From contig NZ_CP061171.1 in NCBI RefSeq assembly GCF_014692875.1, forward strand, positions 1,612,001-1,676,000: DNA of 64,000 nucleotides. Reading direction: 5' to 3'. Both the position numbers and the translations under genes were made by a program. Shown one piece after another: positions 18,507 to 43,178 of the stretch; the first letter of the stretch is position 1, and the number at the start of each line of letters is the position of its first letter. The notes under the pieces were generated by a model. That model was not told where the DNA came from and made no database searches. It was given only the letters and a program-made list of their open reading frames with translations. The stretch is from Pedobacter riviphilus. Lineage in GTDB: Bacteria > Bacteroidota > Bacteroidia > Sphingobacteriales > Sphingobacteriaceae.

Positions 18507-18713
18507 ATGTCGTCTCAGCCTATGAATAAAAAATTACACTCTCCGTCTCGCTATTTGCGTATTTTTTTTGGTAAGGAAATTAATTTAAGAGCACAATTTC
18601 GCTCCATTAACCGTGCATTTTTCGCTATTTCTGTCTTGCTTTTTGTGTATCTGTTTCAAATGCACAAACGCCTATATGCGCTACACCTGGTGCAGATGGT
18701 GCAGCAAATTTAA
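18507..18713 (+). CDS. Giant adhesin, fragment 1: N-terminus and signal peptide
   Basis: The frame gives [17 protein letters not shown] and then [11 protein letters not shown], after which it reads out of frame ([10 protein letters not shown]) to a stop. Adding one T to the run at 18640-18644 continues it as [16 protein letters not shown], a signal peptide with cleavage after SNA and a mature start at QTP. The long basic stretch before the hydrophobic core is usual for very large exported proteins of this phylum. The 69-residue frame at 18613-18822 is an out-of-frame shadow. Confidence 0.7.
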
Positions 18714-21700
18714 GTACCGCTGCAAATACATTTTATCCTTCCAAATCTGGAAATATTACTTTGAACTCTGGAAGTACTTCTTTAGAGTTGGATCCAGTAC
18801 CGGCTTCATTTCAGGTAGGTAGCACTGTATTTTCTTTTGGTAACACACAAATAACCAAAGGTAATTTGTTGTTAATCATTCAGATGCAGGGTGCTGATGC
18901 CAATACAACCAATACTTCATCATATGGATCAGGCATAGCTGCCAATAATGGTTCTGGTTATACGGGAACAGTAACGGCTGGCCGTTATGAGTATGTAGTT
19001 GCACTTAATGATGTAACCACTGCAGGGGGAACATTGCAATTTAAAGCATCGGGAACAGGCGGCGGATTGGTAAATAGTTATGTGAATTCGGATGCAACTG
19101 CTACAAAGGGGCAAAGGCGTTTCCAGATTGTGCGTTTAATGCAATATTCTAATCTGACGATGACCACCGATATCAAAACCATTCCCTGGAATGGTAAAGC
19201 TGGTGGTTTAATTGCAATTGATGTTGCCGGAACTTTAACCATGAACGGTCGTGTAATTGATGCAAGTGCAACTGGTTTTCGGGGTGGTTATTTATTACCT
19301 AGAACCATATTAAATAAGCAAGAGAGTTTATACGTCACCACAGATCCCTCCTTGGCAAGTACAAAGGGAGAAGGTATTGTAGGTACGCCACGTTTTATGT
19401 GGGATGGCTATAACCAGGTAGATAATGGTGTGCAGGGTTATCCGGATGGCGATTATGGCCGAGGTGCACCGGGTAACGCTGGTGGAGGCGGTAACGTGCA
19501 CAATGCCGGTGGAGGGGAGGCGGTAACGGCTCTGCAGGTGGATTAGGCGGATGGGCTTGGGTTGGTGCAACTGGAGACAACACACTTACGGGTGGCCGGC
19601 AAGGTTCTACCGTTCCTTATGCAATAAACAGGTTATTTCTTGGAGGTGGCGGAGGTGCGGGTGATGCCAATAATGCAACTAATGGTGTGAGAGGTGGGGT
19701 TGGTGGTGGTATTATCCTCATCACAGCCAATAAAATAGACGGAACAGGAACTATCCTGGCCAACGGAGGCAGGGGTGAAGCAGGTGGTTTAGGCAGCGCT
19801 GCAGATGGTGCCGGCGGTGGTGGCGCAGGTGGAACAATATTTATTAATGTAGCCAACCCAAGCCCAACAGCTACCTTAACTATCCAAGCAAAAGGTGGTA
19901 ATGGAGGAAATTCTTTTACTACAACTGCACATGGTCCTGGTGGTGGTGGTGGCGGTGGTGTAATCCACTATAAAATCCCTAATGCTACCGTAACTACTAG
20001 CACTGCAGGTGGTTTAAGTGGAAGAACAAATGATGGCGTTACACAGGCTGGAAATGCAAATTCTAATGTTCCTTATGGTGCAACAGATGGTTCAACTCCT
20101 GGCGTGGTGAATCAGTTCACTTTTAATGATTTACCTCCGGAGCTTCAGGGTGTAAGCTCAACCTGTTTACCAAATTTAGTTATCACCAAATCCAGAGCTA
20201 ATCCAACAGTTTCAGTACCTGCTGGTTCTACCACGGTTTATACGATCAATATTAATAATACGGGTGGTGGTGCAGAAGGCGTTAGGATAAATGACCAACT
20301 GCCTGCAGGTTTAACATTTTTATCAGCTACGATTGTTTATTCTACCAGTCCATCAACCGTAGTTACAGTAACCAATAGTGGAACAGCCACTTCACCGGTA
20401 TTGGGGAATTTTAATATTCCTGCTGGGACGTCGGCAACTATTCAACTGACGGTTACTATCCCAGCTGCAACGGCTCCTGGTACGTATAGCAATCCGGCCC
20501 AGGTAACTTATCTTGATCCGACACGTACTGCTGCAAACCCTACCAGGTTAATTTCTCCTGCATCCTTTGCTATAGCAGGTACAAATACCACTTATGAAAC
20601 TGGTGGAACTGTTGGTGGAAGCAATTATAACCCTGCTTTACCAGATGAAGATTTACTGTTAACCAAACCCAATATATCAATCGTAAAAACGGTTAGTCCA
20701 ACCTGTATTGCTACCGGTAGCAATGCTACTTATACCATTACAGTTAAAAATGAAGGTACTACAACCTTAAATACATTTTCTGTAACAGATGTAATTCCGA
20801 CCGGAATGACATTTGTAAGTTCAACGGGAACAACTGCTCCCTGGACTATTTCGAATGCTGGTACAACTTATACCTTTAACTACAATTCAGGTACTGGCCT
20901 TACAACGGGACAAACGGTCTCTTTTACTATTACCGCAACGGCAACAACAGTACAACCTTCTGGCAATTGGTCTAATACGGCATCGGTAAGTGGGGGAAGT
21001 AATTCGACTGTTTTACTTTATGCAAATCCTACTACGGCCACATCATCAATTACTTCTGGTGGTACGGCATGTAACGACGGTACATTTTTTATTAGGGGGA
21101 ATACCCCGACAGTAGGTACCGGGCAATGGAGTCTTACTGCGAATCCAGGTGGCTTTGCCACACTTAATAACCCTAACCAGGCAAATGCAACTGTGGTGGG
21201 GGTAAGAAATGGCTCGCCTGTAACTGCCCGTTGGACCATTACCAATGGTACCTGTAGCAGTACTTCAGATTTGGTATTAACCAATAATAGTGTACTACCT
21301 ACTGGTACTTTAAGTATAGTTGGTAACGCGAGTGGCACTGTTTGTTCTCCTTCACCAACACCTAATCTTCAGGTTGCATTAACCGGAACGCCTAACTGGA
21401 GTATCAGCTATAGAAACCCTACAGGTTTATTAGTGAATGTACCAGGAATAACAACAAGTCCGTATATCATATCTTCAACAACAGTAGGTACTTATACTTT
21501 GGTTTCTGTAACTGATAATACAGGCTGTAGCGGAACCGTTAGTGGTACCGTAGTGCTTAATCAAAGTCCGGCAACAGTTGCTGGTACAGTAAGCGGAGCA
21601 CAAAGCATTTGTTTTAATACTGCACCAACGGCATTGTCTATAAGTGGACAAACCGGTAATGTTGTTTTTTGGCAATCTTCTCCAAATAACAGTACGTGGA

Positions 21701-42700: not shown

Positions 42701-43178
42701 TGGAAATTCTACCCTTGATAAATTAACCGTAGAAATTGTAAGTCAGCCGCTACATGGTAAAGTAACGGTGAACCTTGATGGTACAATTACCTATACGCCT
42801 GATCCTGGTTACACTGGGGATGATACCTTTACTTATAGGGTAAAAGATGCTTTTGGCTATTATACCAATGTGGCAGCAGTAACCTTAACGGCTAATTTTG
42901 CAGGTCTTACCATACCTAACCTGTTTACACCAAACGGTGATGGTATAAACGATACCTTCGAAATATTGGGAATTAACCAATACCAGGTTAACGAACTGCA
43001 AATTGTTAACCGTTGGGGCAATGAAGTATTCCATGCCAAAGGCTACCAGAATAACTGGACGGGCGAAGGCTTGAACGAGGGTACTTACTACTACTTACTA
43101 CGGGTTAAAAAAGCAGGAAGCGATCAGTATGAAGTGTTTAAAGGTTACATAACCTTAATCAGAGCGTTTAAAAAATAA
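18507..43178 (+). CDS. Giant modular T9SS surface adhesin (reconstructed; three one-base losses)
   Basis: Four consecutive open frames belong to one protein of about 8,220 residues. Each break is a single missing base: in the T-run at 18640-18644, in the G-run at 19514-19517 and at CACCGGCC 34853-34860. The frame moves 0, 2, 1, 0 in register and the domain sequence continues across each. Order: signal peptide, Gly-rich region, about 25 DUF11-type domains with Ig-like segments between, a cadherin-like region, 24 Calx-beta domains, four cadherin/VCBS-like domains, three DUF7507-like domains, another cadherin-like domain and a T9SS type B C-terminal signal. Such proteins cross the outer membrane through the type IX system and act in gliding, adhesion or biofilm. 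PorP/SprF and OmpA partners follow directly. A ligand cannot be predicted. ATG 18507 or 18522 may be the start. Confidence 0.85.
18644..19546 (+). CDS. Giant adhesin, fragment 2: N-terminal Gly-rich domain
   Basis: The frame is open from 18644, and the first ATG in it is internal (18761). It encodes the start of the mature protein, [21 protein letters not shown], followed by beta-rich sequence ([36 protein letters not shown]) and then Gly-rich sequence. It ends early, at [14 protein letters not shown], because one G is missing from the run at 19514-19517. With it restored the text reads [20 protein letters not shown] into the next fragment. Confidence 0.75.
19516..34878 (+). CDS. Giant adhesin, fragment 3: Gly-rich, DUF11, cadherin-like and first Calx-beta domains
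   Basis: The frame is open from 19516, and the first ATG-like start in it is a GTG near 19687. The Gly-rich region runs to about 20150. DUF11-type repeats begin at [14 protein letters not shown] (about 20180) and [11 protein letters not shown]. Ig-like segments with paired Cys occupy about 21040-22640. Twenty-three further DUF11 repeats run to about 31500, each opening with a variant of ITKSGPxxxxAGxxIxYxI and each about 110-125 residues. A cadherin-like pair lies at about 31500-32420, two divergent Calx-beta domains at about 32430-33120, and the 669-bp array starts at 33121. The fragment ends at ACSPLP because of a one-base loss at 34857. Confidence 0.85.
32433..33120 (+). other. Two divergent Calx-beta domains ahead of the array
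   Basis: [20 protein letters not shown] and [20 protein letters not shown] each open a Calx-beta domain with DY, DDN and DND motifs. They are only moderately similar to each other and to the array units and may represent the ancestral single-domain state. Confidence 0.7.
33121..40478 (+). repeat. Tandem array of 11 x 669 bp, each unit coding two Calx-beta domains
   Basis: Units begin at 33121, 33790, 34459, 35127, 35796, 36465, 37134, 37803, 38472, 39141 and 39810. All are 669 bp except the third (668), which carries the one-base loss. Each codes 223 residues: domain A opens [16 protein letters not shown] and ends ASINILDN, and domain B opens [16 protein letters not shown] and ends ATVNITDND. 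The Calx-beta acidic motifs (ENG, SDY or TDY, DN, DDN, DND) recur in every copy and should bind calcium and stiffen the stalk. Copies differ by scattered single bases, many silent. Whether the array is the true length in the living cell is open, because assemblers often mis-count repeats this similar. Confidence 0.95.
34857..43178 (+). CDS. Giant adhesin, fragment 4: Calx-beta array, VCBS-like, DUF7507-like and T9SS type B domains
   Basis: The frame resumes at 34857 as [19 protein letters not shown] and continues the Calx-beta array to 40478. Four cadherin/VCBS-like domains of about 91 residues follow ([20 protein letters not shown] type) to about 41580. Three DUF7507-like domains ([23 protein letters not shown]) run to about 42620, then a cadherin-like domain ([22 protein letters not shown]). 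The last 90 residues, [20 protein letters not shown] to [12 protein letters not shown], are the gliding-motility-associated T9SS type B C-terminal domain, which directs export and surface attachment. The first ATG in the frame (34941) is internal. Confidence 0.88.
40487..41579 (+). repeat. Four cadherin/VCBS-like domains, duplicated as pairs
   Basis: Four repeats of about 273 bp (91 residues), each with TxxNGxxTAxDxDGDxLTFxV and GTYxYTP. Copies 1 and 3, 546 bp apart, are nearly identical, while copy 2 ([12 protein letters not shown]) and copy 4 ([12 protein letters not shown]) are more diverged. A block of two domains therefore seems to have duplicated. Confidence 0.85.
42903..43175 (+). other. 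T9SS type B C-terminal sorting domain
   Basis: The segment [20 protein letters not shown], the [10 protein letters not shown] strand and [13 protein letters not shown], ending in [12 protein letters not shown], match the gliding-motility-associated C-terminal domain family of Bacteroidota (TIGR04131-type). It targets the protein to the type IX translocon. Confidence 0.9.

Follow-up and report, generated by a model that had tools for sequence, protein, structure and literature searches.

A giant type B surface-fiber gene in four overlapping frames, followed by PorP/SprF-family and PorE-like genes, in Pedobacter riviphilus

The genome of Pedobacter riviphilus, a single contig of 5.83 Mb, contains a giant gene for a surface protein of the type B class of the type IX secretion system (T9SS). 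It lies at positions 18,522 to 43,178 of the 64,000-nucleotide stretch analyzed here, which we call the window (contig positions 1,612,001 to 1,676,000). The gene is spread over four overlapping frames, from the ATG at 18,522 to a stop at 18,711 and then, stop to stop, over 18,608 to 19,546, 19,492 to 34,878, and 34,830 to 43,178. Across these frames runs a collinear series of 61 recognized domains, and the whole, read as a continuous chain, amounts to 8,219 codons, the stop included. Genes for a PorP/SprF-family carrier and for a PorE-like protein follow. We consider it likely that this is one gene for a fiber of ~8,200 residues that was split by one-base assembly errors, and that its product is anchored to the cell wall via the carrier and the PorE-like protein. 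The features, with the evidence for each, are these:

16,642 to 17,034, plus strand: relic of a second PorP/SprF gene, comprising the last third with stops inside; read as left from a lost upstream giant-plus-carrier unit
18,522 to 18,713, plus strand: frame 1, a long signal peptide, with the cleavage-site region running on into frame 2 (similar peptide in relatives)
18,608 to 19,546, plus strand: frame 2, first part of the Gly-rich head (91 to 92% identical to the heads of relatives G102 and G149)
19,492 to 20,175, plus strand: start of frame 3, second part of the Gly-rich head (comparison with relatives; model of the G149 head)
20,176 to 31,485, plus strand: 25 DUF11-type domains (2 at 20,176 to 21,027 and 23 at 22,654 to 31,485) with one PKD-like domain between (profile matches)
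31,513 to 32,431, plus strand: 2 cadherin-like/Big_9 domains (profile matches)
32,434 to 34,803, plus strand: Calx-beta domains 1 to 7, end of frame 3 (profile matches)
34,839 to 40,487, plus strand: Calx-beta domains 8 to 24, frame 4, in a 223-residue double repeat (profile matches)
40,482 to 41,561, plus strand: 4 cadherin/VCBS-like (tandem-95) domains (profile matches)
41,586 to 42,554, plus strand: 3 DUF7507 domains (profile matches)
42,615 to 42,890, plus strand: 1 cadherin-like domain (profile match)
42,909 to 43,178, plus strand: T9SS type B C-terminal sorting domain (profile matches to CHU_C and TIGR04131)
43,234 to 44,208, plus strand: PorP/SprF-family carrier without cysteine and without a Cys-X-Cys (CxC) tail (TIGR03519, 251 bits; cut-off, 90.6)
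44,229 to 46,214, plus strand: PorE-like protein with PD40, CarboxypepD_reg, and a peptidoglycan-binding OmpA_C domain (Pfam and profile models)

The domain order was established by agreement of Pfam, NCBIfam, and home-built profiles. From the N terminus, the signal peptide and Gly-rich head are followed by the DUF11-type array, two cadherin-like domains, 24 Calx-beta domains, four cadherin/VCBS-like domains, three DUF7507 domains, one further cadherin-like domain, and the type B C terminus. Pfam and NCBIfam returned 14 plus 11 DUF11 stretches, 2 Big_9/cadherin matches, 7 plus 17 Calx-beta matches, and, in the last frame, 5 Big_9/Cadherin/VCBS-like and 3 DUF7507 matches ahead of CHU_C/TIGR04131, which is the order that an initial annotation had proposed from the sequence and its translations. 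The C terminus scores 51 to 58 bits against TIGR04131 (cut-off, 35) and 88 bits against CHU_C (cut-off, 27), and its best segments are 98% identical to Pedobacter sp. AK013 and 91% identical to P. psychrodurus. Thus, the long row of immunoglobulin (Ig)-like domains with a type B end, the length of about 8,220 residues with 50 or more domains, and the reading as one gene were all borne out, the last because the protein carries on in the next frame at every break, as it does in unbroken relatives. The annotation was partly right about the start: the ATG at 18,507 that it chose is open, but the start shared by relatives is the ATG at 18,522 (MNKNLH..). Its domain list omitted the head of ~510 residues ahead of the DUF11 array, and its placement of the protein among the largest of bacteria was too strong, as frames reaching 12,342 codons are found within the genus among the matches listed. 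Given these larger frames and the count of over 41,000 UniProtKB proteins longer than 5,000 residues, mostly eukaryotic, in the excerpt of PMC11573180 used here, size alone is no novelty. The protein belongs to an established kind, that of T9SS type B surface proteins paired with a PorP/SprF carrier; it is ordinary in its class, real, and conserved.

The syntenic giant is a single stop-to-stop frame in five relatives, with 6,829 codons in G149, 10,060 in G102, 8,361 in G119, 8,027 in G026, and 8,369 in G122. A PorP/SprF gene, an OmpA-family gene, DinB, and DnaE2 lie 3' of the giant in all five. At least 16 of 145 same-genus genomes have a matching frame of at least 6,000 residues among the matches listed. 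Two genes in this region are each split into two frames in a relative with a single-contig assembly, the PorE-like gene in G149 and DnaE2 in G122.

Breaks in other genes were surveyed by comparing G149 frames of 200 to 2,999 codons with 264 kb of the source genome, and the reverse, at thresholds of 70% identity and 75% coverage; opposite-strand frames were kept, so the number of genes compared is perhaps somewhat too high. Ten of 108 genes are broken in the source genome (11 breaks in 51,029 aligned codons, with two of the 11 break regions overlapping), compared with 2 of 111 in G149. All ten belong to known families: a peroxiredoxin, sugar enzymes, a sulfatase-like protein, two SusD proteins, an aminopeptidase, a PG_1098-type protein, and, in the window itself, a pyridoxal phosphate-dependent enzyme of Cys/Met metabolism (13,528 to 14,735), whose broken stretch at 13.5 to 14.7 kb consists of two frames and which is whole in G149 (402 codons). 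The giant falls outside the count owing to its length. The survey rate predicts 1.8 breaks in 24.7 kb, and the probability of three or more, the number seen in the giant, is 0.26. Exactly one gap to G149 occurs at 5 of the 11 survey breaks and at two of the three breaks in the giant, and in each case the source genome is one base short. As the three breaks fit the background of this genome and every clean gap is a single base missing from it, we favor assembly error as the explanation.

Several observations weigh against this reading. Six of the 11 survey break regions have several gaps, three of them with gaps of both signs, and the first break in the giant lies in a diverged stretch with several gaps and no clean one. 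Given run lengths of 1 to 7 and the mixed gaps, the data do not prove any one type of error. In G082, a draft genome, the giant likewise spans two frames (570 and 7,807 codons), with the break near its N-terminal end. The Calx-beta units are ~95% identical in DNA, so the assembled length of the array could also be wrong. If the breaks were real, the giant would be a recent pseudogene in this strain; three breaks do exceed the 1.8 expected, and an upstream array unit has been lost with a relic left behind, so decay does occur at this locus. We nevertheless consider a pseudogene unlikely, since ten of the 108 comparable genes of the same genome, enzymes among them, are broken too, the clean gaps are uniform in size and sign, and the ratio of nonsynonymous to synonymous substitution rates is low. 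For pieces of frames 2, 3, and 4, this ratio is 0.03, 0.12, and 0.09 relative to G102 and 0.04, 0.12, and 0.22 relative to G149; the gene is therefore under purifying selection.

A PorP/SprF gene directly downstream, as found here, is a common though not universal trait of type B substrates. The PorE-like protein encoded next matches the CHU_0125_OmpA (14 to 651) and T9SS_PorE (11 to 623) models over nearly its entire length, and the solved chain nearest to its OmpA_C domain by sequence is 6top (E value, 1.2e-24), which we take to be the PorE domain of Porphyromonas gingivalis. The gene order of type B protein, carrier, and PorE-like protein is that of the static Fjoh_3952-Fjoh_3951-Fjoh_3950 set of Flavobacterium johnsoniae: in the excerpt of PMC12618676, Fjoh_3952 forms static foci, and its gene is followed by those for a shuttle and then a PorE-like protein. 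The part of PMC9143113 consulted proposes that mobile type B proteins are held by a PorP-like protein alone and nonmobile ones by PorP plus PorE. In the window, the PorE-like gene lies in the same gene run as the giant, and together these features make a good case, at the level of sequence, for static wall anchoring.

Some points speak against so close a parallel. The PorE-like protein scores below the curated cut-offs (445 of 620 bits for CHU_0125_OmpA and 355.8 of 600 bits for T9SS_PorE), so we label it PorE-like rather than PorE itself; no match in 17 genomes of the genus reaches the CHU_0125_OmpA cut-off. A Pfam scan of the protein reported no TPR, and the PorE motif as printed in the excerpt of PMC5053529 is not matched exactly, with the LSxxRA core and HTD present. 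The PorP protein of the other PorE-linked giant in this genome ends with a single cysteine.

The initial annotation had suggested a comparison with SprB-like adhesins, and a mobile gliding adhesin of that kind would share with the giant its export class, a similar size, and a PorP/SprF carrier directly downstream; a GldJ-like protein is also present in the genome (321 bits, under the cut-off of 458). According to the portion of PMC12635249 available, SprF couples to the gliding track only via its CxC tail, by a disulfide with GldK. The carrier in the window has no cysteine at all, and neither do 18 of the 19 carriers at these loci in 11 relatives. There are 11 PorP/SprF matches in the source genome, one of which is the relic; two others look like pieces of one gene (G000:C1:2,804,446-2,805,356), which accords with the background of gene breaks in this genome. 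Of the nine real C-terminal tails, none has CxC in its last 40 residues, and five, among them that of the carrier paired with the other PorE-linked giant, have a single cysteine near the end. With a cysteine-free carrier and a PorE-like, peptidoglycan-binding protein next to it, a gene type tied to nonmobile type B proteins (PMC9143113 and PMC12618676, in the same excerpts), SprB-like gliding is not supported, and we regard it as very improbable.

Calcium binding, which the initial annotation extended over Calx-beta and cadherin-like domains, is plausible for the Calx-beta domains only. Five of their acidic columns are conserved in all 24 copies and a sixth in 22 of 24, and we take these columns to include the calcium ligands of NCX1. 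One copy matches NCX1 at an E value of 3.2e-11; a typical later copy matches it weakly (E value, 0.002), among antibody chains of like score. We found no evidence of calcium binding for the DUF11 and DUF7507 domains, which are nearly half of the total. Four repeats of MpAFP, the ice adhesin of Marinomonas primoryensis, span ~190 Å in the excerpt of PMC4083281, and at this spacing ~60 domains would span roughly 0.25 µm; the length of SprB is given as ~200 nm (PMC12635249, same portion).

No Pfam name was returned for the head. Frames of 1,004 to 1,237 codons carry it in 4 of the 35 other genomes of the genus in the first sample, and a related head in G032 has 3,191 protein relatives at an E value of 0.001, among the best 120 of which many have type B ends. 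An AlphaFold2 model of the G149 head (mean predicted local distance difference test score, 79.9; predicted template modeling score, 0.88) is beta-rich with a long Gly-rich part, and neither it nor a model of its later part has a confident match among solved structures.

Based on these features, we propose the following mechanism. The signal peptide would direct the chain into the periplasm, from where the type B C terminus would route it through SprA, the gene for which is present in the source genome. The chain would remain bound by its C terminus to the PorP/SprF barrel encoded next, and the PorE-like protein, the product of the gene after that, would link this barrel to peptidoglycan. A row of some 60 Ig-like domains, of which the 24 Calx-beta domains are probably calcium-stiffened, would hold the N-terminal Gly-rich head ~0.25 µm from the cell, where it may bind something outside. 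It is hardly conceivable that programmed frameshifting joins the frames in the cell, even with frames that overlap at each break and a protein that continues, as five relatives read the same places in one frame and similar breaks are scattered over unrelated genes.

Beyond the single wall-anchored fiber proposed above, the locus differs among relatives in unit number and in heads. In G119, G026, and G122, a second giant (5,920, 6,305, and 5,889 codons, respectively) with its own carrier lies upstream of the one compared. A type B gene with a carrier also lies upstream in G102, G082, G091, and G110, where the gene is cut by the end of the stretch or contig; in the last two of these, the PorE-like gene is followed by a third giant. 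The window and G149 have no upstream giant and keep the last third of its carrier; their homology to relatives begins within ~50 bases of the same place, and the loss of the upstream unit is therefore probably shared. Among the giants compared, the part of the head in frame 2 matches only those of G102, G149, and the third giant of G110 (E value, 1e-5), and the last 860 residues are 90% identical to G119 and 86% identical to G026, both with other heads. The long signal peptide (18,522 to 18,650) is alike in giants bearing different heads, and the head type at this locus in G026 (from 12,198 onward) has a Pfam Gly_rich_2 match of 34 bits.

The different heads on similar C-terminal halves, and the tandem giant-plus-carrier units of relatives, are new here as read from the genomes, and such mosaics suggest head exchange. 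The number of Calx-beta domains is 13 in G149, 24 in the window giant, and 55 in G091 and G110. Nine Calx-beta units of the window that share one motif are 94.7% identical in DNA and at most 85% identical to such units of relatives, and G149, a close relative, has no Calx-beta units with that motif; in this limited sample, the pattern fits recent homogenization. It is possible, though on balance we remain doubtful, that the locus is a diversifying fiber array, in which tandem giant-plus-carrier units share one wall anchor, the near-constant C-terminal halves serve as the socket, recombination exchanges the outward heads (of which at least three kinds occur) and alters the number of Calx-beta domains (from 13 to 55), and the Gly-rich head is an undescribed adhesion fold. 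If so, a cell would alter its binding target and reach without altering export.

The source genome has three full-length PorE-like genes, one alone and two adjoining its two largest type B genes, which are the window giant and a 4,382-codon frame at 4.19 Mb. We surveyed such neighbors in 17 genomes of the genus, using the best 150 of 172 type B matches and 56 PorE-like matches (E value, 1e-60); the window giant entered by its last frame only (2,781 residues). Among the matches listed, 9 of 10 type B proteins of at least 4,000 residues (the sole exception being G012:C1:901882), 9 of 17 of 2,500 to 4,000 residues, and 19 of 123 shorter ones have a PorE-like gene no more than 4.5 kb downstream. 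As the rows share ancestry, this pattern, which is also new here, is an association and not a test of independent events.

Other features of the window include a 207-base tandem repeat of 2.9 copies (59,113 to 59,706), one copy of which reaches the Rfam threshold for Flavo-1 RNA (59,623 to 59,686, minus strand), and a second Flavo-1 RNA at 14,802 to 14,898. An inverted repeat at 17,788 to 17,822 (91% over 35 bases), at the end of a gene for a LuxR-type response regulator, is also found in five relatives and is likely a terminator.

The wall-anchored fiber that we propose overlaps only partially with known systems. The Fjoh_3952 set agrees with the window locus in gene order and in its three kinds of product, from which static anchoring is predicted for the window protein; unlike Fjoh_3952, that protein is a giant bearing a Gly-rich head, and the two were likened by gene order, without sequence comparison. 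PG1035-PorP-PorE of P. gingivalis similarly combines a type B protein, a PorP-like barrel, and a PorE with peptidoglycan-binding OmpA_C, whereas no description of a giant fiber was met for it in the literature covered, and the window protein is under the PorE cut-off. MpAFP is exported by a type I system and is built of other domain families. As in our proposal, its calcium-stiffened Ig-like repeats keep a binding domain off the cell (PMC4083281, same excerpt). SprB/SprF of F. johnsoniae resembles the window locus in its very long repeat adhesin, type B C terminus, and adjoining carrier, but SprF has a twin-cysteine tail and sprB has no porE-like neighbor, the reverse of the window locus on both counts. 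To our knowledge, the giants of Apilactobacillus kunkeei do not involve a T9SS. Giant1 to Giant5 of that species, as described in the excerpt of PMC12863079, are giant surface genes in consecutive order; four of the five have an N-terminal binding head, and the genes recombine with one another. Unlike those of the window locus, they belong to lactic acid bacteria and have beta-solenoid heads.

The division of type B T9SS proteins into mobile and static ones is recent and, in the literature covered, rests on a few F. johnsoniae examples. From another family, the locus adds a very large protein as a clear and testable candidate for the static class, and its cysteine-free carrier predicts immobility. 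It is also a warning that a giant gene found in pieces may be a matter of assembly. With different heads on a common stalk, these genes offer a ready system for studying how soil Bacteroidota change their targets, and the mosaic heads deserve study.

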